From: an uncultured Lachnospiraceae bacterium
Lineage (GTDB): Bacteria > Bacillota > Clostridia > Lachnospirales > Lachnospiraceae
Direction: 5' to 3'
DNA length: 63,778 nt
Assembly (NCBI GenBank): GCA_902789175.1
Contig: CADANF010000009.1
Coordinates: forward strand, 1-63,778
The notes below the pieces were generated by a model that had not been told where the DNA came from, made no database searches, and was given only the letters and a program-made list of their open reading frames with translations. This document shows, piece by piece, positions 89 to 9,828 of this stretch. The position numbers were made by a program, and so were the translations under genes. Positions within the stretch are counted from its first letter, which is position 1; each line of letters opens with the position of its first letter.

Positions 89-571
89 TATCATTTACAA
101 GAATTAGCGGCAGTAAATGTATTGTCATTATTTTTGGCTTATGGAAGCAAGGAAAAAGGCTTAGATTTAATATTTGAATGTGTTTTTACAAGTATTTACA
201 TAGTAATGCAATGTTTTATATTTTTCATACAATATGAAAAGAACACATATGTATTGATATATAAAAAAGAAAATTTTAGCAGATTAATAATTGAAAAAAT
301 AATTCATGCAAGCGTACTTTCATTACCATATTTGATTCTTAATGGATTTTTATATACATTTGCATCGGCAAACTATATGAATATAGTGATAATGATAGCG
401 GGATATTTAATATTTTTAATTGTTACTGTTATGCATATTCCATACTGGAGAAAAAAATATGGTAGTGAATTGTTAAGAGATAAAGACGAATTAAAATATA
501 TGATTCATATTATTTTTAGTTTGTTTGTTTTAATAATGTTTTTTAACATGAGAGGATTATTAAATGGATAA
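89..571 (+). pseudogene. Truncated membrane protein, C-terminal part of an ABC-type permease
   Basis: The frame is open from 89 (after TAG at 86-88) to the stop at 571. The first available start, TTG at 122, has no convincing ribosome binding site, and codons 89-121 already read like protein. About four hydrophobic segments are visible (roughly residues 20-40, 62-83, 88-107 and 127-143 from TTG 122). The 3' end overlaps the next ATPase gene by 8 bp, the usual coupling of permease and ATPase genes. I read it as the surviving C-terminal part of an immunity- or export-type ABC permease whose 5' half was displaced by the element at 1-79. The permease role is inferred from position and hydrophobicity; no family motif is visible. 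Confidence 0.5.
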
Positions 572-1460
572 AAAAGTATTAGAGATTATTAACTTAAATA
601 AAAGATATGGTGATAAAAGAATACTTAGTAATGCAAATATGACTGTCTATGAAGGAGATATTTATGGATTTGTGGGAAAAAATGGTGCTGGAAAAACAAC
701 ACTAATGAAAACATGTCTGGGTATTACAAATAAAGAGTCAGGAGAAATAAAATTCTTTAATAGTACAAACTATAACAAAAGAAAAAAAGTGGGGGCACTG
801 ATAGAAAATCCTGCTTTATACGAAGAAGTATCCGCTAGAAAAAATATGGAGTTATATGCGACCATTTTTGGAGAAGGTAAAAGAGAAATTGATGAAATAC
901 TTAAAATGGTTGGTTTATCAGAACATTCAAATAGAAAAGTAAAAAAATTTTCTTTAGGCATGAAGCAGAGATTAGGAATAGCGATAGCTTTATTAAATAG
1001 CCCAAAGTTTCTTATATTAGATGAGCCTATAAATGGATTGGATCCGGAAGGTATAGCAGAAATAAGAAAAATAATCATTGATTTAAATAGAAAAGAGAAA
1101 ATTACCTTTTTAATTTCAAGTCACTTATTGGATGAATTAGGTAAAATAGCAACCAGATATGGTTTTATTGCAAACGGAACAATTGAGGAGATGAAGGCTG
1201 AGGAACTCCAAGAAAAATGCAAAAATACTTTATGTATTGAAACCAGCTCGGATAAAACAAATCAGTTATTTGAGGACTTTAAGAAGAAATATAGAGAATT
1301 AGAGCCTAAGGTAAATAATAATATCATAGAAATGAGATATGTTGAAGAAACAGTACCTGGAATTGCAAGGTATATGAATAAAAATAATTACAATATTTAT
1401 TCAATTTTTCCTAAAAAAGAAAGTTTGGAAAAATATTTCTTAGAAAGGGTGGGAAAATAG
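564..1460 (+). CDS. ABC transporter ATP-binding protein, bacteriocin-immunity/export type
   Basis: 298-aa nucleotide-binding protein. Walker A GKNGAGKT is at residues 38-45, signature FSLGMKQ at 129-135 and Walker B LILDEP at 150-155, followed by a typical D-loop. A C-terminal extension of about 80 residues resembles that of BcrA/LanF-type ATPases that power antibiotic or lantibiotic export. It overlaps the upstream permease remnant by 8 bp, and its stop shares a base with the GTG start of the next permease, so the three are translationally coupled. It probably energises export of, or immunity to, a peptide; the substrate is not shown by the sequence, but the circular bacteriocin gene 1 kb downstream is the obvious candidate. 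The opposite-strand frame at 770-1078 is a shadow. Confidence 0.85.
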   Translation: MDKKVLEIINLNKRYGDKRILSNANMTVYEGDIYGFVGKNGAGKTTLMKTCLGITNKESGEIKFFNSTNYNKRKKVGALIENPALYEEVSARKNMELYATIFGEGKREIDEILKMVGLSEHSNRKVKKFSLGMKQRLGIAIALLNSPKFLILDEPINGLDPEGIAEIRKIIIDLNRKEKITFLISSHLLDELGKIATRYGFIANGTIEEMKAEELQEKCKNTLCIETSSDKTNQLFEDFKKKYRELEPKVNNNIIEMRYVEETVPGIARYMNKNNYNIYSIFPKKESLEKYFLERVGK

Positions 1461-2182
1461 TGTTTAAAATTACAAAATTTGAAGTGAAAAAAATTTTTAA
1501 TGGTAAGGCATTTGGTATATTATCTCTTATTCTCATTTTGCTTACTATTTTTACATTTATAGCATTGAGACATTCAAAAATAAGTGGAAATGAGTTGCTT
1601 TTTAATACATTTGCCAGTTCTGGAATAGAAATAATTCTTGCAATTATTATTCCAATAGTTATGTGTAGTGATTTTGAAAATAAGGCGTTTAGATTAATAA
1701 TAGGAAGAGGATTTACGAAAAATAAATATCTTTCAGGAAAAGTTTTAACAATTACTATTTTGACGATTGGTTTATCTTTAATTTCTTTATTTACAGCTGC
1801 TATTCTTTATTTGAAATCAGGCAAAACTGAGAAAATTACAAATTTATATATAGATAAAATAGCGCTTATATTGTTGGTTCAGCTAGGTTTTGCTTCAGTT
1901 TATATGGTAATAAGTCTGGTAGTAAAAAAGAAGGGCGGGGCGATAGCCTTAAACATTTTACTTCCGATGATGATTTCCCTCCTGCTTCCTCTTTTGGATA
2001 AATTATTAAAAAATGGAATGAAGAAAAGTATCAGTGGTTATTGGATAAGTTCAATTCCTCAAAAAATTGCTGATATGGGGACTTTGGATCAAAATACAAT
2101 AGAGATTTTTGTAGTTTTAATAATATATTGCATTATAGGGTATTTATTGAACAATATTTTAATAAGACGTACAGAAATCTAA
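1460..2182 (+). CDS. ABC-2 type permease, partner of the upstream ATPase
   Basis: 240 aa with about six hydrophobic spans (near residues 18-36, 53-70, 92-112, 134-154, 163-180 and 214-232), a short cytoplasmic N-terminus and the charged turn DFENKAFR after the second span, typical of ABC-2/LanE-LanG-like permeases. It starts with GTG, preceded by AGGGTGGG, and overlaps the ATPase stop by one base. With the ATPase at 564 it would form an exporter; the second permease gene of the set (89-571) is broken, so the transporter may be impaired or may work as a homodimeric permease. Bacteriocin self-protection is inferred from location. Confidence 0.75.
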   Translation: MFKITKFEVKKIFNGKAFGILSLILILLTIFTFIALRHSKISGNELLFNTFASSGIEIILAIIIPIVMCSDFENKAFRLIIGRGFTKNKYLSGKVLTITILTIGLSLISLFTAAILYLKSGKTEKITNLYIDKIALILLVQLGFASVYMVISLVVKKKGGAIALNILLPMMISLLLPLLDKLLKNGMKKSISGYWISSIPQKIADMGTLDQNTIEIFVVLIIYCIIGYLLNNILIRRTEI

Positions 2183-2438
2183 ATAATTTAGGGTGGTATA
2201 CGAGATGAAATGTTTAAAAAGAAAGGACATTAAGTAAAAATTGTAGGACGAAATAAGGTTATTATTGAAATATATGGTATATTACAGTGATTCACTGTTA
2301 TATAAAAGGACTCTATTTAATATTTAAATTCGCGAAAACCAATAGAGCCCTAACTTAAGATAGCACTTATAAAAGCACCGGTTAAAGTATACAGCTTTTT
2401 TAATAAGTGTAAATATTATTAGAAAAAGGAGATAAAAT
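2183..2438 (+). promoter_or_regulatory. Leader of the bacteriocin gene with an operator-like dyad and two hairpins
   Basis: This 256-nt gene-free stretch holds three nested structures. ACAGTG-ATT-CACTGT (2284-2298) is a perfect 6-bp dyad. GGACTCTATT (2308-2317) pairs with AATAGAGCCC (2341-2350) with one mismatch. CACTTAT plus AAAAGC (2364-2376) pairs with GCTTTT plus ATAAGTG (2394-2409), giving a long hairpin with a T run in its 3' arm. An AAAGGAG ribosome binding site (2425-2431) lies 7 nt before ATG 2439. I read the dyad as a possible repressor or response-regulator site and the last hairpin as a terminator for the upstream ABC genes or an attenuator for the bacteriocin gene. No clear -35/-10 pair is visible. 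Confidence 0.45.
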
Positions 2439-2660
2439 ATGTTAAAAATTGTTGAAGTATTAGGTGCATCTTGGGGAGTGGGTAGTCTGATATATGATTA
2501 TCTTACGGGAAGTGCTTGGTGGGCATGGATGATTGATGCAGGCTTTTTGGTTGCAGGAATTGTTTCTGGAGGAACAGCTGCATTAATGAAGCAGGCAGTA
2601 AAGATGGGTCTTAAACAGGCAATTAAAGGTTTAACAAAGAAAGCAGCAATTGCTTTATAA
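2439..2660 (+). CDS. Putative circular bacteriocin precursor (circularin A/uberolysin/AS-48 type)
   Basis: 73-aa cationic peptide. Most of the length is Gly/Ala/Ile/Leu-rich hydrophobic helix; residues 50-69 are strongly basic, and the C-terminus is KKAAIAL. In known circular bacteriocins the mature peptide commonly begins with Leu or Val after a short leader and ends in a hydrophobic, often aromatic residue (circularin A and AS-48 end in similar Ala/Ile-rich tails). By analogy the leader would be MLKIVEV and the mature ring L8 to L73, 66 residues; that cut is inference. The SGG...ALM stretch near residues 43-50 resembles the same part of circularin A. A strong ribosome binding site precedes it, and genes for a SpoIIM/DUF95 protein and a small ATPase follow, which is the hallmark context. 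It would insert into and permeabilise membranes of related bacteria. An unprocessed leaderless bacteriocin is the main alternative. Confidence 0.7.
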   Translation: MLKIVEVLGASWGVGSLIYDYLTGSAWWAWMIDAGFLVAGIVSGGTAALMKQAVKMGLKQAIKGLTKKAAIAL

Positions 2661-2669
2661 ATTAATAAA

Positions 2670-2700
2670 AAAGGACTGAGGGCTGTTTGACCTCAGTCTG
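2670..2700 (+). terminator. Intercistronic hairpin after the bacteriocin gene
   Basis: GACTGAGG (2674-2681) pairs perfectly with CCTCAGTC (2691-2698) around a 9-nt loop, with no T run after it. The 8-bp stem lies 13 nt downstream of the precursor stop and before the first membrane-protein gene. Such hairpins commonly stabilise the structural-gene message or reduce expression of downstream genes; full termination is unlikely without a U tract. Confidence 0.6.
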
Positions 2701-2722
2701 ATATTAGCTAAAAGGGAAAAAT

Positions 2723-3367
2723 ATGGGAAGATTAATAGGGATGTTTATCTGTTTGTATTTCTCAATTAATAAGAATATATTTTTTGAGAAGTATAAATTC
2801 ATTAAAATCAGTGATAATAAGAAAAATTCATTTTATATCATATGGTTTATTATAAAGAATTATCTGACAATCATGCTGGGGCTTGTTGTATTGTATCGCT
2901 TGTTTCAAAACAAACTATTGTGCGAGATTTTAATAATAGGCTTATTATTAAGTGAGTTGATAAGGATTGATTCGAATGATTGGAGATTGTTTGAACGAAA
3001 TGATTTTGCTATTGCAATTCCTCAGGCGTTTGAAAGAAGTATGATAGTATTGCTCGGAAATATCATGTATAAATTGATGATCAATACAAATCTGATACTT
3101 TATACAGTGCTACTCTGTTTTTTTGAGAGAGAGCATACAGTGAAAGTTGTTATAGCAGCTTCAATTTATTTTTTAGTATTCTGTATTTCGGAATGGTCGG
3201 TATTTTTTATAAGATATTCATCTTTAGAAATTAAGAAGATATATAGTTTTATTGGATATATTAAATCATTTATATTTAATGCGGCAGTCTTTTATCTTTT
3301 TTTTGAAATGGCAATCTTTTTTATAAAACTCGTGATAAATGGAGGAACTTCATATAATAGTTCATAA
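2723..3367 (+). CDS. Multi-spanning membrane protein of the circular bacteriocin locus (first part of a CirB-like unit?)
   Basis: 214 aa, about six hydrophobic segments, no soluble domain. It follows the precursor gene by 62 nt, the position held in circularin/uberolysin clusters by the large membrane protein (CirB/UblB, about 550 aa) required for maturation or secretion. This gene plus the next one (214 + 346 aa, overlapping by 29 bp) roughly add up to that size, so the pair may be a natural split or an old frameshift of a CirB-like protein. No recognisable motif was found; assignment rests on context. The start ATG 2723 is preceded by AAAGGGAAAAAT. Confidence 0.5.
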   Translation: MGRLIGMFICLYFSINKNIFFEKYKFIKISDNKKNSFYIIWFIIKNYLTIMLGLVVLYRLFQNKLLCEILIIGLLLSELIRIDSNDWRLFERNDFAIAIPQAFERSMIVLLGNIMYKLMINTNLILYTVLLCFFEREHTVKVVIAASIYFLVFCISEWSVFFIRYSSLEIKKIYSFIGYIKSFIFNAAVFYLFFEMAIFFIKLVINGGTSYNSS

Positions 3368-4379
3368 AATAATGGGACTTTTATCGGATTATTTTACTAT
3401 TATACTTGCGGTTATAATTGTTATAACTGTGGTGAATTTAGTTGTATATGTGCTTGCTCTTAAGAGGATTAATGAAAATTATTATATTTATAAAGATGAA
3501 AGCAGATATATAATAAAAAACTTTTTTATATTGAGATTATTTTTAGCTATAGCAAAAAAAATAGGCAGGTCCAGTGTGCTTGTTGAAAAAGAATTTTTTT
3601 TATTTGCAGACATATATAAATATAATTATGCTAATGCATGGTATGTGTATTTAGCTGACAGGTCTATTGCTATTCTACTTGCGATTGTTACTGTCATGTA
3701 TAGACATTCTTTTTTAGGGGCAGGATTTGTATTGATGGGACTTATTCCATGTTTTTTCATTCTTGATATAAGTTCAGCTGTTTCTGTAAAGCTGATTGCA
3801 AATATGTCTCTTATTGCAGATAGAAATACAGTGATGATAGCTAATACAAATGGGATTGATATAAAAAATATACTAAAAAGCAAACTGGAGTTTTTCTATA
3901 TAATAAAATCTTTTAATATCATTATTTATTTTGTAATAAGCAATATTATAATGAATTTTTTTAATGGAAATTTTTATGTGATGATTGGTGTGAACCTGCT
4001 TAATGTAATGGTTTTAATAATGATGCCGAAAAATTATCTGATCAATAATTTAATCTATACCAGAATGGATTATAAAGACTACAGGCAGTTTTTGGATGAA
4101 TCACAGATTCTGGATGTGGGAGTAAATGACTTTTTGCCAATAAATATTCTTTTTAAGATTATCTCGACTGTAGTAATGCTCGTATTAGCAACTTTTGTAT
4201 TAAAGTCATTTATAAAGTTTGATATTCCTCCTTTAATTATTTATCTCCTAATTGTAATGTCATATTTGATAACGATTCCTGTATGCTCAAAAGTGATGAA
4301 GAGAATAGGTAGAAATATCATAGATTTTATAGAAAGGGGGAATTATTCTGCAGATTTTGCAAAAATATTTAAAGAATAA
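3339..4379 (+). CDS. Multi-spanning membrane protein of the circular bacteriocin locus (second part of a CirB-like unit?)
   Basis: 346 aa with roughly eight hydrophobic spans and a cytoplasmic-looking charged region near residues 45-90. The GGAGG that could serve as ribosome binding site lies inside codons 1-2 of this frame, not upstream, so ATG 3339 is probably reached by coupling to the preceding gene, with which it overlaps by 29 bp; ATG 3372 is a weaker alternative. Its end overlaps the SpoIIM-like gene by 23 bp. The role in bacteriocin maturation, cyclisation or export is inferred from context only. Confidence 0.5.
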   Translation: MEELHIIVHKIMGLLSDYFTIILAVIIVITVVNLVVYVLALKRINENYYIYKDESRYIIKNFFILRLFLAIAKKIGRSSVLVEKEFFLFADIYKYNYANAWYVYLADRSIAILLAIVTVMYRHSFLGAGFVLMGLIPCFFILDISSAVSVKLIANMSLIADRNTVMIANTNGIDIKNILKSKLEFFYIIKSFNIIIYFVISNIIMNFFNGNFYVMIGVNLLNVMVLIMMPKNYLINNLIYTRMDYKDYRQFLDESQILDVGVNDFLPINILFKIISTVVMLVLATFVLKSFIKFDIPPLIIYLLIVMSYLITIPVCSKVMKRIGRNIIDFIERGNYSADFAKIFKE

Positions 4380-4908
4380 AATGATATTAAAATTAGCTAT
4401 TATTCTATTTATAGTATCAGTGGGAATTATTTCATTTCTTTCCTTAAACGGCAATGAATTTATAAAACTAGATTTAAATTTGATCAATGAAAAAAATGTT
4501 GCATTTTGGCATGTATATAAATCAAATATGATATTGATCTGCAAGATTTTTTTCCTGGGAGTTACCACAATTTCTTTATACTCAATTTTTAGCTATGTTC
4601 AAAATATACTTAGTATTGGGATTATAGCAAATGGATTGGTAAATGAAGGATATGGTAGATTGGCTGCCAAAATGATCCCTCATGGGGCGATTGAATTTAT
4701 TGGTATATCTTTAGCGGTTTCAACGGTGATCTGGATTTGGATATTTATTATTAAAAACATAGTTAAAATTATTAAGTGCGAAGTTAGTGTAAAAGACGTG
4801 ATAAAAAAAATTATAGGAACAATGATAGTATTTTTGATGGTATGCAGTGTCGTTTTTGCTGTTGCAGGAATAATAGAAGTGATGGTTTCTCATTATAAAG
4901 TAATTTGA
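4357..4908 (+). CDS. SpoIIM/DUF95-family membrane protein of the circular bacteriocin locus
   Basis: 183 aa with about four or five transmembrane segments. The stretch MIPHGAIEFIGISLAV near residues 107-122 matches the conserved PHG-x-x-E-hydrophobic motif of stage II sporulation protein M/DUF95 proteins. Members of this family (As-48C, CirC, UblC) occur in the known circular bacteriocin clusters and are needed for production, secretion or immunity. The TTG 4357 start lies 16 nt from AAAGGGGG (4333-4340); CTG 4348 in the same frame has better spacing, so the true start is uncertain. It is followed at 22 nt by its partner ATPase. Confidence 0.7.
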   Translation: MQKYLKNKMILKLAIILFIVSVGIISFLSLNGNEFIKLDLNLINEKNVAFWHVYKSNMILICKIFFLGVTTISLYSIFSYVQNILSIGIIANGLVNEGYGRLAAKMIPHGAIEFIGISLAVSTVIWIWIFIIKNIVKIIKCEVSVKDVIKKIIGTMIVFLMVCSVVFAVAGIIEVMVSHYKVI

Positions 4909-4930
4909 CTGGTCGGAGGATTGTTAGAAG

Positions 4931-5575
4931 ATGAGTAAAGGGTTGATCAAGGTAAAAAATCTGACATATGGATATGAAGATGATCCGGTAATAAAAAATG
5001 TTTCGTTGGAGTTAAGATCAGGAGAAGTATTACTGTTGGAAGGTGAAAATGGCGCTGGAAAAACTACATTGTTAAAATGTATAACAAACGTACTTAATAG
5101 CGGAAAAGATGTATTTTATGAAGAAAAAGAAGTCTATAAGAATAAGAGGCTCATTAAAAATTTCTCATATGTTATGAGTGAAGATTATCTTTATGATTAT
5201 ATGACTATGGATGAAAATATAAAATTTTTTAAAAAACTATTTAAGGAAGATGCAGAATACTTAGATAGAGTTGAAGCTTTTGTAGAAAAATTAGGAATAA
5301 AGAGTTATAGGAATAAGCTTGTTAAAATATTGTCGCAGGGGACAAGAAATAAATTATTTATTGCCATCATGTTTTCAAAAAAACATTCAGTGCTTATTTT
5401 GGATGAGCCATTTACAGCACTGGATAAAGAAACGCAGAATGTGATTCTTCCTTGTGTTGAGGATTATAAAAATAGTGATGATAAAGCGGTTCTTATGGTT
5501 ACTCATATAGAACAGTTTAAGAGAATTGCAACAAGAAAATTTATTTTAAAGAGAGAGGCCAAAAATGGAGACTAG
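4931..5575 (+). CDS. ABC transporter ATP-binding protein of the circular bacteriocin locus (CirD-like)
   Basis: 214-aa stand-alone nucleotide-binding protein: Walker A GENGAGKT at residues 38-45, signature LSQGTRNK at 134-141, Walker B LILDEP at 155-160 and a switch His in MVTHIEQ. The small size and the position after a SpoIIM/DUF95 gene match As-48D/CirD/UblD, which together with the DUF95 protein are thought to export or help expel the peptide. AGGATTG precedes ATG 4931. Its stop overlaps the start of a 27-aa peptide gene by 11 bp. Confidence 0.8.
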   Translation: MSKGLIKVKNLTYGYEDDPVIKNVSLELRSGEVLLLEGENGAGKTTLLKCITNVLNSGKDVFYEEKEVYKNKRLIKNFSYVMSEDYLYDYMTMDENIKFFKKLFKEDAEYLDRVEAFVEKLGIKSYRNKLVKILSQGTRNKLFIAIMFSKKHSVLILDEPFTALDKETQNVILPCVEDYKNSDDKAVLMVTHIEQFKRIATRKFILKREAKNGD

Positions 5576-5648
5576 ATTAATAATAAGTGCTGTTTTATTG
5601 GTTTTATTTATAATAGCGGTTATATATTTTAAAAAAAATAAGGAATAA
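5565..5648 (+). CDS. 27-aa single-span peptide, candidate immunity peptide (CirE-like)
   Basis: ATG 5565 to TAA 5648 encodes a short N-terminus (METRLI), about 16 hydrophobic residues and the basic tail FKKNKE: a minimal single-membrane-span peptide with positive inside charge. It overlaps the 3' end of the ATPase gene by 11 bp; AGAGAGG (about 5550-5556) is a plausible ribosome binding site. Circularin A and uberolysin clusters end with a small cationic, one- or two-span immunity protein in this position (CirE about 49 aa). This one is shorter, so immunity is an inference from position and shape. Confidence 0.5.
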   Translation: METRLIISAVLLVLFIIAVIYFKKNKE

Positions 5649-5907: not shown

Positions 5908-7083
5908 TTAAGCAACTTTTATGTATTGCTGGTTTGTTTTTTCAAGATGATAAATGACTCGAACTAGCTTTTTTACAGCATGAGATAGGGCAACATTATA
6001 ATGCTTGCCTTCGGCTCGTTTCTTGGCTAGATATTCAGCAAATGTTGGATCCCAATGACAGACATATTTGGCGGCATTATATAGTGCATATCGCAAATAC
6101 CTGGAACCGCGTTTTTCCATGTGGGCGTAGGCACCATCTAGTTGTCCTGATTGATATGTAGATGGTGAGAAACCAGCATAAGCTATGATTTTATCGGGAG
6201 AATCAAAACGGTTGAAATCACCGATTTCAGCAATAATCATAGCTCCCATACGATAGTTAATACCTGGGATACTAAGGATTGGAGAATTGATTTCGTCCAT
6301 AATGATTTTGATTTCATTTTCGATTTCATCAATCTCAGAAGAAATCTCTTGGATGAGTTTAATTGTGTGTTTTAATTCTAAAGACTTTGCAGGCATGTTT
6401 GAACCAATGGAGTTTCTTGCAGCATCTCTAAAAGTGATTGCTGTTTCTCTACTATATCGACCTTTTGATGATTCAGAAAGCAGGTTTGTAAGTCTTGTAA
6501 GGTGAGCATTAGCTACTTGTTTAGCTCTGGGGAACTCAGAAAGCATTGCATAAACAGATGCTATATGAAGTGTTGGTACTAGCTTTTCTAATTCAGGAAA
6601 TAAGATACAGACAAGTCTGGAAATGGAAGACTTAAGCTTGGCACGTTCCTTAACTTTATCGAAACGATAACGAGTTAATGACTTTAATTCTTCGTTGTGG
6701 TAAGATGTGTCTGAGTAGGACTTTAAGTTCACATCAGACATTAGCATAGAAGCAATCGTGCGGGCATCTACTTTATCCGTTTTCGTCTGTCTAAGGCTTA
6801 GACTTTTTCTGTACAGATTTGTATGTAACGGATTGATAACATAGGCGGCCAAACCTTTATCAACGAGATATCCTAAAAGATTGTAACTATAGTGTCCAGT
6901 GGCTTCTAGCCCTACTTTTACTTTTGTTATATCTTCCATAACGGATTCAATTCTTTGATAAAGATTATTAAAACCATCTAGGTTATTTGTGATGGTAAAT
7001 GCTTTGAATAACACTTCTCCATCAGAGTTTGTTATAAAGCAATCATACTTATCCTTTGCAACATCAATTCCTACGTAAATCAT
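5908..7083 (-). CDS. IS110-family transposase (DEDD and serine recombinase)
   Basis: 391 aa, full length for the family. The N-terminal DEDD RuvC-like domain shows D7, E60 (GLEATG), D103 and D106 (KTDKVDA). The C-terminal Transposase_20 domain contains SIPGINYRMGA near 271-281 and STYQSGQ, whose S312 is the expected serine nucleophile. The gene starts at ATG 7083 with AGGAGATT upstream on the minus strand. IS110 elements transpose through a circular intermediate guided by a bridge RNA. The transposase is intact and could be active. It separates the bacteriocin operon from the sensor-kinase gene. Confidence 0.95.
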   Translation of the reverse strand: MIYVGIDVAKDKYDCFITNSDGEVLFKAFTITNNLDGFNNLYQRIESVMEDITKVKVGLEATGHYSYNLLGYLVDKGLAAYVINPLHTNLYRKSLSLRQTKTDKVDARTIASMLMSDVNLKSYSDTSYHNEELKSLTRYRFDKVKERAKLKSSISRLVCILFPELEKLVPTLHIASVYAMLSEFPRAKQVANAHLTRLTNLLSESSKGRYSRETAITFRDAARNSIGSNMPAKSLELKHTIKLIQEISSEIDEIENEIKIIMDEINSPILSIPGINYRMGAMIIAEIGDFNRFDSPDKIIAYAGFSPSTYQSGQLDGAYAHMEKRGSRYLRYALYNAAKYVCHWDPTFAEYLAKKRAEGKHYNVALSHAVKKLVRVIYHLEKTNQQYIKVA

Positions 7084-7475: not shown

Positions 7476-7530
7476 ATTGACTGCAAAAATATAATGTGAG
7501 AAAATTCATATATTGAAAAGAGGGTTTAAA

Positions 7531-8853
7531 ATGTATTATCAATTATGGAATTATATTTACGGCTTTGAAGAGGTTTTAACGTATTTTTTATGCGATTATG
7601 CTATTGTAAAAGTGATTTTTAAAAGACCAATAAAAACTTTTTCTTTGATTATAATCATAAATATCTGTTGTATTATATTACTGAATAATTATTGTATGAG
7701 TGGAAATTTAATACGGATATATCCAGTCTTGATTGGATTGATAATTCCATTATTATCAAAAGAGGGATTTAATAAAAAAACTTTAATTTCTTGGCTTTTT
7801 ATTTTTATATCAGATATTTTTAACACCACAGTTTTGCTATTGGTGTCGTATCTGACAAAAGAAAATTTAGTCGATGGAAATTCATATAATGAGAAAAAAC
7901 TATTATATAGATGTTCATTTCTTTTAATAATTCTTTTAGTGTATATGATAAGAAAATGGAATAATTCTAAAAATGATTTATTTGAAGCCATGAATTATAG
8001 GCAATTTATTTTCTTGTTTTTTAATTTATTAAGTTGGATTGTTGTTTTCGTAATTTATGAAGACAAAATAAAAGAATCTAATTATGAGGGAATAAAAGAG
8101 CTGATGGTTAGTTTTGCGGCTCTTTTAGCACCGGTATTTAGTATAGTTTTAAGTATTATTTATAGTAATTCTGTAAAGAAAATATCTGCTTTGCAAGAAA
8201 AAGAAAAATGGGATCAGTTTTTTATGCAATCTCAAAAAAATCAAATTGAAGATATAATGCAAAGGGATAAAGAATTAAGAGCTTTCAGACATGACTACAG
8301 GTCACATATGATTGTAATAAAAGAATATGCAAAAAGAATATCAGAGGGAAATAAGGAAGATTCAGATAAGCTGTTTGATTATGTAAATAATTTTGAACTG
8401 AGCTATATTGATAAATATAATAATGTCACAACAGGGGTAACGGAATTGGACGCCATTGTTGGTGAATTAGCAAAAAGATGCGATCTGGAAAAGATTATAT
8501 TTGAAACCAAAGGACATCTTGTTATTCCATCAAATATAAAAATATATGATATTTGTGCGGTTGTATATAATTTACTTTTAAATGCAATAGAAGCATCAGA
8601 AAAGATTGAAGAAGAAAAAAGAAAAATAGATATAACATTTTCATATTTTAAAAATCATATATCCATTACCGTGCAAAATAGTTGTATATCCGGTAAAATG
8701 GCTGATTCCCAAATGTTTCTTTTTACAGATAAAGAAGATAAAGTAAATCATGGAATAGGAATCGAAAATGTCAGAAAAATGATAAATAAATATGGTGGAA
8801 AAGTTCTGTTTAATAATAAGGACGGCATATTTAAAGTAGAAGTGTATATATAA
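7531..8853 (+). CDS. AgrC/ComD-like (HPK10) peptide-sensing histidine kinase, orphan
   Basis: 440 aa from ATG 7531, chosen because AAAGAGGG (7517-7524) is correctly spaced; the in-frame TTG 7513 is not. About six N-terminal membrane spans (to about residue 215) are followed by a linker helix, an H box FRHDYRSH with His near 254, an N box NLLLNAIEAS near 348 and HGIGIENVR as GHKL G box. This layout is that of quorum-sensing kinases that bind secreted peptides. No response-regulator gene, AgrB or AgrD-type gene lies beside it; the only candidate ligand is the 15-aa peptide upstream. Its place in the bacteriocin island suggests control of bacteriocin expression, which is inference. Confidence 0.85.
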   Translation: MYYQLWNYIYGFEEVLTYFLCDYAIVKVIFKRPIKTFSLIIIINICCIILLNNYCMSGNLIRIYPVLIGLIIPLLSKEGFNKKTLISWLFIFISDIFNTTVLLLVSYLTKENLVDGNSYNEKKLLYRCSFLLIILLVYMIRKWNNSKNDLFEAMNYRQFIFLFFNLLSWIVVFVIYEDKIKESNYEGIKELMVSFAALLAPVFSIVLSIIYSNSVKKISALQEKEKWDQFFMQSQKNQIEDIMQRDKELRAFRHDYRSHMIVIKEYAKRISEGNKEDSDKLFDYVNNFELSYIDKYNNVTTGVTELDAIVGELAKRCDLEKIIFETKGHLVIPSNIKIYDICAVVYNLLLNAIEASEKIEEEKRKIDITFSYFKNHISITVQNSCISGKMADSQMFLFTDKEDKVNHGIGIENVRKMINKYGGKVLFNNKDGIFKVEVYI

Positions 8854-8921: not shown

Positions 8922-9644
8922 TTACAGTGGTTCTTTCTTTGCTGTACCAGCTTTTCTTGGATAAGCTTTAGGAGTTGGAGCAGTCTTTTTAACTACGATA
9001 AAACTTCTCTTAATATCAGAATCAGGAAGAGTTATTCTTATGTCTTCAACTATGTCGCCGTTGAGACATTTAAGGGCGTGGGAAGCATTAAGTATTTCTT
9101 CATCCACCTCGCCTGATTTATAGGAAATAAAGTAACCGTTCTTTTTAACAAAAGGAAGAGTATATTCAAGAAGTATAGGCAGGTTTGCTACAGCGCGGGA
9201 TACGGCTATATCAAAATGGTCCCGAAGTTCTTTATTTCTTCCACCTTCTTCTGCTCTTGAGTGGATGGCTTTAATATCTTTTAAACCAAGAGAAAGTATC
9301 ACTTCATTTAAAAAATTTACTCTCTTATTAAGAGAATCAAGAAGCACCACATCTAAATCTGGAAAAAGAATCTTAAGTGGAATGCCGGGAAAACCAGCTC
9401 CGGTACCAACGTCAATAAGTTTTAATTTTTTGTCTTTAAGACCGTCAACCTTTGTTACAGAAAAAACCATGGAAACACTATCTATAAAATGTTTTAAGAC
9501 CACATCTTCTTTTTCTGTTATTGCAGTAAGGTTCATGACCTTGTTCTTCTCAATCAGCATCTCATAATAGGTTTCAAACTGAGCAAGTTGTTTTTCGCTG
9601 ATTGGGTAGTTATTTTCATTGCAAAATGATTTTAATTTATTCAT
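8922..9644 (-). CDS. rsmG: 16S rRNA (guanine527-N7)-methyltransferase RsmG
   Basis: 240 aa, usual length for GidB/RsmG. It uses S-adenosylmethionine to methylate N7 of G527 in 16S rRNA. The SAM-binding motif DVGTGAGFPGIPLKILFPD lies near residues 77-95, followed by the acidic LLDSLNKR strand; SRAVANLP near residue 150 is also typical, and the early NLTAI motif is present near 38. The gene is often next to mnmG near the origin, but here the downstream neighbour is the bacteriocin island, so the island's right border probably lies between 8885 and 8922. Confidence 0.95.
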   Translation of the reverse strand: MNKLKSFCNENNYPISEKQLAQFETYYEMLIEKNKVMNLTAITEKEDVVLKHFIDSVSMVFSVTKVDGLKDKKLKLIDVGTGAGFPGIPLKILFPDLDVVLLDSLNKRVNFLNEVILSLGLKDIKAIHSRAEEGGRNKELRDHFDIAVSRAVANLPILLEYTLPFVKKNGYFISYKSGEVDEEILNASHALKCLNGDIVEDIRITLPDSDIKRSFIVVKKTAPTPKAYPRKAGTAKKEPL

Positions 9645-9828
9645 AAGAATCCCTTAATTTGATTTTTATATAAAAATGTTATATTATGCAAAGACGCATA
9701 TATTTTAATCATAGATTAAGATGTTTAAAAAATCAATCATATATGATATATTAAACTTTGAGCATATCGTTAATACTTATAAGTTTACTTAAGTATATAT
9801 ATAAATACGAAAGGTATAAAGTAATAGT

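Follow-up and report, generated by a model that had tools for sequence, protein, structure and literature searches.

The window analysed here, a stretch of 63,778 nucleotides from an uncultured Lachnospiraceae bacterium (GenBank assembly GCA_902789175.1, contig CADANF010000009.1, positions 1 to 63,778), raises the question of whether a compact gene cluster near its start makes a circular bacteriocin, and what role is played by the structured RNA that precedes it. The cluster comprises, as read in the window sequence, a 73-residue cationic precursor (A), a hairpin, two membrane proteins (B), a SpoIIM/DUF95 protein (C), an ATP-binding cassette (ABC) ATPase (D) and a 27-residue peptide (E), and it is compact, with three overlapping junctions (29, 23 and 11 nt) and remaining gaps of 62 and 22 nt. 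A first-pass annotation had named all of these elements, which are indeed found where it placed them, tightly packed or overlapping, with the SpoIIM protein and the ATPase now confirmed by Pfam; the span that it gave, 2439..5648, holds all protein genes but stops short of the leader RNA (2278-2417). The locus probably encodes a divergent circular bacteriocin together with the proteins that would mature it, export it and protect the producer, and the precursor transcript would open with the structured leader; production of the ring is uncertain, and circularisation, export, immunity and antibacterial activity are attributed by analogy with the named families.

The argument begins with the SpoIIM protein, which is described as occurring in all circular bacteriocin clusters (PMC6131525, PMC8659200). 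Protein C matches PF01944 with 47.3 bits against a cut-off of 26.9, and a profile of seven C proteins from circular bacteriocin loci recovers it with an expectation value (E) of 7.1e-14 in a search of eight proteins. The ABC ATPase and the membrane partner expected of such a locus are likewise present, D matching PF00005 and B being homologous to single proteins of about 562 residues in relatives. For comparison, TIGR03651, the model of the circularin A, uberolysin and AS-48 type, was searched in genomes of the class, where it matches in 2 of 291 (both above cut-off), and of the phylum, where it matches in 10 of 299 (five above cut-off). Four of the 13 matches lie in frames of 472-481 residues and were dropped, and nine precursors were kept (L009-L017), among which L017 is under the cut-off and L014 and L017 are partial. 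In eight of the nine loci fetched (L025-L032), the precursor is followed by a B-like membrane protein of 423-602 residues, a SpoIIM protein that passes the PF01944 cut-off and an ATPase of 198-232 residues, in that order, with one extra open reading frame (ORF) between SpoIIM and ATPase in L028 and with the partial precursors in L029 and L032; the ninth, L024, has no ORF of at least 120 residues listed in the SpoIIM place. The order of the window genes and their SpoIIM protein match these eight loci, which bears out the earlier recognition of a circular bacteriocin layout. Such loci have a precedent in the family, as nine of ten circular clusters reported in the Hungate collection are from Lachnospiraceae, one peptide being 75.7% identical to circularin A, and circularin-like peptides from Lachnospiraceae have already been reported in silico (PMC13289728); the novelty for its genus that the first-pass annotation proposed for the peptide is tentative.

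The precursor was compared with a home-made profile of the nine kept precursors. Among 243 small ORFs of the window and of contig C47 of the same genome, it ranks first (E 0.008), followed by a 64-residue peptide of C47 (E 0.24); composition shuffles of the precursor score as high in 2 of 1,999 and 36 of 19,999 cases, and the reversed peptide scores -0.6 bits. It aligns end to end with the circular precursors, and the precursor of L010, which exceeds the TIGR03651 cut-off, is equally long and likewise starts with ML..LG. Residue 1 of the AS-48 and NKR-5-3B chains in the PDB falls on I4 in the family alignment, hence a leader peptide MLK and a 70-residue ring I4-L73 are likely, rather than the ring L8-L73 first predicted; the carnocyclin chain, which is shorter, would shift the start one residue past I4. 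According to PMC10028692, a charged residue is frequently the last one in the short leader peptides of known members. The cationic character assigned to the peptide at the outset holds for either ring, with an isoelectric point (pI) of 9.53 and a charge of +3 for I4-L73 and a pI of 9.8 for L8-L73, and a high pI with net positive charge is the mark of group I circular bacteriocins. The calculated mass is 7250.6 Da (average) for the ring I4-L73, 6810.1 for the ring L8-L73 and 7669.1 for the formylated linear precursor. The start of A is preceded by AAAAAGGAG, and the hairpin behind A has no run of uridines (U-run) after it in the sequence.

Table 1. Features of the precursor locus and its upstream region (window positions).
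Feature	Position	Strand	Basis
Precursor gene A, 73 residues, ATG start, ends KKAAIAL; predicted leader MLK, ring I4-L73	2439..2660	+	ORF, profile ranking, alignments
Hairpin between A and B, perfect 8-bp	2673..2699 (8-bp hairpin 2674-2698)	+	sequence
B N-terminal part, hydrophobic membrane protein, 214 residues	2723..3367	+	35% identity to residues 5-214 of the 564-residue G261 protein (L023)
B C-terminal part, 346 residues, separate overlapping frame	3339..4379	+	38% identity to residues 227-564 of the G261 protein (L023); 91% in L006
SpoIIM/DUF95 protein C, PHGAIE motif, 183 residues, TTG start	4357..4908	+	PF01944, E 2.9e-12
ABC ATPase D, 214 residues	4931..5575	+	PF00005 (ABC_tran), E 9.8e-26
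Candidate immunity peptide E, 27 residues, single-span, cationic	5565..5648	+	L006 counterpart at same place
ABC ATPase of accessory (self-protection type) transporter	564..1460	+	best NCBIfam match TIGR03740, under cut-off
Probable permease partner of accessory ATPase	1460..2182	+	weak matches, all under cut-offs
Leader RNA, P0 hairpin	2278..2304	+	free fold; above shuffles; pairing kept while sequence varies
Leader RNA, P1 (2307-2351) and P2/P3 (2363-2410)	2304..2417	+	covariance models R1, R2; covariation

B is split in the window into two halves. Its relatives carry a single protein, of 562 residues in the congener G970 and 564 residues in G261, with successive parts of which the two window proteins align (Table 1); the two polytopic membrane proteins of the first-pass annotation are thus both present as ORFs, but they are halves of one protein. 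In the locus L006, from the nearest named relative, the metagenome-assembled genome Eubacterium sp. RGIG507, the second half of B is in one frame with the end of the first half. The two overlapping frames of the window arise because 26 bp present in L006 are absent, the difference lying between short GATAA direct repeats, and the split is perhaps recent. The ratio of nonsynonymous to synonymous substitution rates (dN/dS) relative to L006 stands at 0.26 in the second half of B, at 0.30 in the 5' part of the SpoIIM gene and at 0.20 in the ATPase gene; relative to G970, where dS is saturated, it is 0.19 for the SpoIIM gene and 0.16 for the ATPase gene. By these ratios, C, D and the C-terminal half of B have been under purifying selection in comparison with relatives, and the values may reflect the past, L006 being damaged itself.

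Several observations weigh against a working circular bacteriocin locus. TIGR03651 has no hmmscan match to the precursor at E<=1 and none in the genome search at E<=0.001, and searches of NCBIfam, Pfam and the PDB returned nothing useful, no curated precursor model matching. The match to circular bacteriocin families for which the first-pass annotation had looked therefore fails in the curated libraries and is seen with the nine-precursor profile only, to which hhalign aligns the precursor weakly (7% probability, E 0.0051) and which, in a larger set (all frames of at least 30 residues from eleven loci), still places the precursor first but only at E 0.064. B has no significant profile match to the B proteins of TIGR03651-type loci and is split relative to all three relatives seen (L006, G970 and G261), hence the maturation and export machine may be impaired. 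L006 retains only a remnant of A and has lesions in B and C, neither the G970 nor the G261 locus has a recognisable A gene, and G261 lacks part of C. The precursor ends in leucine, as carnocyclin A does. In circularin A the C-terminal residue is required to be aromatic, as stated in PMC10028692, and the window peptide does not fit that subtype.

These points can be taken to mean that the locus is decaying, with an intact precursor, a split B that no longer works, no ring, and genes kept for immunity only. B being one frame in the relatives (in L006 as far as it is present) and two in the window fits such decay, as do relatives' loci that are themselves damaged or without A; in the window, however, neither frame is interrupted over its roughly 640 or 1040 bp and their 29-nt overlap is of the kind seen in translational coupling, the dN/dS of the second frame is low, though much of this may predate the split, and the precursor and its RNA leader are intact, so that we consider decay rather unlikely. 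That the peptide forms no ring, being instead a linear leaderless bacteriocin or a cationic membrane peptide of another kind, would agree with a precursor that matches no circular profiles and has its best Pfam match, a weak one, to the holin family PF16079 (E 0.031, under cut-off), but it is improbable in view of the end-to-end alignment with circular precursors and of SpoIIM, reported from all circular bacteriocin clusters (PMC6131525, PMC8659200).

Taken as a circular bacteriocin locus, the cluster resembles those of circularin A, uberolysin and AS-48 in the order precursor-B-SpoIIM-ATPase, the predicted cationic core of 70 residues, the short leader peptide and a core start aligned to AS-48 residue 1, while it differs in having no match to the TIGR03651 model, a split B, a C-terminal leucine, a 27-residue putative immunity peptide and a structured RNA leader. 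Butyrivibriocin AR10, from rumen Butyrivibrio, stands with gassericin A in another group, which is also of the circular type and linked to SpoIIM. That group is described as having a lower pI and long leader peptides (PMC6131525), whereas the window precursor has a pI of 9.7 and no long leader. For protection of the producer, two elements are candidates. The 27-residue peptide fits an immunity protein by composition and place, with 22 of 27 residues identical by eye in its L006 counterpart and no family match above cut-off in NCBIfam or Pfam; upstream of A, the accessory ATPase scores 230.7 bits against the lantibiotic protection model TIGR03740 (cut-off 309.75), and the adjoining probable permease matches PF12730 (E 0.0096) and PmtD (E 0.04), both under their cut-offs.

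The second part of the question concerns the RNA. The leader, 140 nt long, lies upstream of A and consists of the hairpins P0, P1 and P2/P3. Sequences of up to 170 bp before A recur in the genome, with 88% identity before the C47 peptide, and six aligned copies fold alike into 22 pairs, four of which show compensatory changes. A covariance model of these six sequences, the window included (R1), scores the window leader at 98.6 bits (E 1.1e-18). At E<=0.01 it has 19 matches, which come from four of the 61 genomes searched in the genus; ten are in the window's genome (the one on C20 weak, E 0.005, and the one on C30 broken). Model R2, applied at E<=0.001 to 363 genomes of the family, has 25 matches in 11 genomes, all 11 of different genera, with 17 of the 25 outside the window's genome; within the genus, its 17 matches fall in the four genomes that R1 had picked out of the 61. 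The 36 distinct matches in the family include 32 that were aligned, the others being G982:C92, identical in sequence to the window, and G000:C30, G000:C20 and G982:C99, which are truncated or weak.

Conservation of the structure is seen at each level of sampling. In 15 copies, 92.1% of the cells are paired (30-50% in slid controls) and 9 of 22 pairs have changed on both sides, with none of 500 shuffles as high for both, while further pair types, one of five measures, are below the shuffles (15 vs 17.1). In all 32 copies, whose alignment was fitted to the model, 93.2% of cells are paired (slid controls 32-48%), compensatory changes on both sides are seen at 14 of 22 pairs, in 81 cells compared with 23.6 in shuffles, and further pair types are no higher than in shuffles (27 vs 25.7). 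The 17 copies from ten other genera that lie outside the model give 94.1% paired cells (351/373) and 13 of 22 pairs changed on both sides. Free folds of the 15 copies contain the hairpins P0, P1 and P2 with z from -2.0 to -7.1, the register of P2 being shifted in C208; window positions 2280-2450 folded alone give a z of only -1.4. The free minimum-energy fold holds at least 14 model pairs in 29 of the 32 copies; L059, L096 and L097 keep P1 only, and L100 keeps P2/P3 only. Of 31 copies tested for P0, 29 have a hairpin that exceeds the shuffles (k<=9 of 200; window 5/200), and the stem sequence of P0 varies among copies with pairing kept. Loop-loop pairing of P1 with P2, examined by eye, was inconsistent and was dropped.

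The leader is like other cis-regulatory RNAs of Rfam in being a short conserved structure before a coding region, but P1-P3 match no family of Rfam 15 in the 32 copies scanned; one mir-5 match at chance level (E 1.2, 2249-2305) overlaps the window P0. Leader patterns have no exact match in viral contigs, and blastn located neither the window leader nor the L084 leader in plasmids and did not locate the L084 leader in phages. Searches of the open-access literature showed no structured leader common to bacteriocin genes, though the motif may stand unnamed in supplementary files; the word bacteriocin is absent from the main texts of the RNA-discovery papers PMC8040213, PMC11109978 and PMC8632094.

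What follows the leader is, in most copies, a gene for a small exported peptide. A start codon with a ribosome-binding-like sequence lies within 33 nt of the leader in 26 of 32 copies (by a permissive test), and the products, by our reading, are two of circular type (window and C47), seven with double-glycine leaders, 16 small and apparently secreted (<160 residues, one cut short) and three longer secreted ones, with four copies lacking a clear intact gene. Pfam searches of 24 of the 32 products gave one match at E<0.001, under its cut-off; Bacteriocin_IIc matches two peptides (E 4.8e-4 and 0.039), both under cut-off, and no family matches the secreted peptides searched. Among neighbouring genes, a Peptidase_C39 (E 6.9e-27) lies downstream of one leader-linked peptide, and one bacteriocin-associated membrane protein (TIGR01654, E 1.9e-4) and one bacteriocin-type ABC ATPase (TIGR03608, 218 bits) occur, both under cut-off; six other neighbouring membrane proteins that were searched match no bacteriocin family. 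The label lactococcin-972-like, which we give to the small secreted products, is suggested by apparent signal peptides, size and some neighbour genes, and because independent support for a bacteriocin identity is limited, this class is bacteriocin-like by inference only. As a structure and as a marker of genes for small exported peptides, the leader is well supported. One copy (L059 1414-2780, from G978:C208) precedes an 83-residue hydrophobic peptide with a GGG motif, possibly a modified one, and a radical S-adenosylmethionine protein.

In 7 of the 32 leader loci, from five other genera, all outside the window's genus, an aptamer of the cyclic di-GMP-I (c-di-GMP-I) type lies upstream on the same strand. 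L085, L086, L094 and L095 pass the gathering score of RF01051, and L087, L091 and L099 match RF03167 under its gathering score (E 2e-10 to 1.3e-7); for the window leader and 14 other leaders of its genus, there is no such aptamer at E<=1. Five of the loci have a gap of 70-113 nt between aptamer and leader, with a U-run after the aptamer and no ATG-started ORF of at least 30 residues between, and the other two have gaps of 282 and 556 nt with an ORF or ORF remnant. Aptamer and leader are both structured 5' leaders, the aptamer being a separate RNA with a U-run of its own. Since a transcript that the aptamer lets through would continue into P0-P2, the tandems argue that the leader is an RNA. The alternative, a DNA element such as an operator or a promoter containing inverted repeats, is a little less probable still than a linear peptide. 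In its favour, the P0 5' arm resembles a -10 box by eye in several copies, the copies lie upstream of genes and further pair types do not exceed shuffles. Against it, stem sequences change with pairing kept in 14 of 22 pairs, P1 and P2 together cover about 110 nt and have conserved loops, which an operator would not, and P0-P2 would be transcribed in the five close tandems.

We lean towards the view that the leader represents a new class of structured RNA, acting in cis, by which unrelated bacteriocin classes (circular, double-glycine and the small secreted proteins taken as lactococcin-972-like) are co-ordinated across at least eleven genera of the family; it may be a switch in its own right that binds a ligand or an RNA, and in some genera it stands behind a c-di-GMP-I riboswitch. 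In the mechanism that we propose for the window, transcription would enter from upstream and the leader would fold into P0, P1 and P2/P3. As this leader is common to other exported-peptide genes of the genome, and would set whether or how strongly the peptide gene is expressed, the set would be expressed together; regulation by the leader is here inferred only. The 73-residue precursor would then be made, and the SpoIIM protein, the split B and the ATPase would form a membrane complex that removes MLK (probably), joins I4 to L73 and exports the ring, while the 27-residue peptide and the upstream ABC transporter would protect the producer.

A second cluster in the same genome lies on contig C47 (L022, G000:C47), where a 64-residue Gly/Ala-rich cationic peptide (9043-9234), preceded by the same RNA leader as the window precursor, is followed by a SpoIIM gene (9308-9805, 64 bits) and has a LytR/AgrA-like regulator and a GHKL histidine kinase upstream. 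This SpoIIM gene runs into foreign sequence at the contig end, and because the same sequence ends G982:C92 at the start of A, a mobile element is likely. Counterparts of the C47 genes stand in L006 directly before the remnant of the window-type cluster, L006 (1-8309) holding two SpoIIM clusters head to tail, the window-type one reduced by internal deletions and a frameshift. An orthologous B-SpoIIM-ATPase set in G970 (L054 5327-10460, from G970:C30) has genes for a histidine kinase and a response regulator as neighbours, and no precursor gene can be recognised there. Behind the window cluster are an IS110-family transposase gene (5908-7083; NF033542, 208.6 bits, above cut-off) and a sensor kinase gene (7513-8853), 35% identical over 268 residues to the kinase of the G970 locus, with no response regulator among the ORFs listed up to 9644. 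Searched in 397 family genomes, the precursor has, besides itself, two weak matches inside unrelated longer frames (184 and 603 residues), and in plasmids nothing beyond matches at E 9. Searches of plasmids and viral contigs did not recover the second half of B, nor did a search of viral contigs recover D; a viral contig picked by a DNA pattern encodes no relative of the precursor.

The regulation of circular bacteriocins was described in a 2018 review as largely unknown so far (PMC6131525). The cluster adds a divergent, probable circular peptide beyond current models, which is useful rather than surprising. The shared RNA leader offers a concrete, mutable element with which the switch-on of circular bacteriocins can be tested, and it can serve to locate genes for exported peptides that escape profile searches; the aptamers that stand in tandem with it in other genera hint at a connection of c-di-GMP with antagonism.

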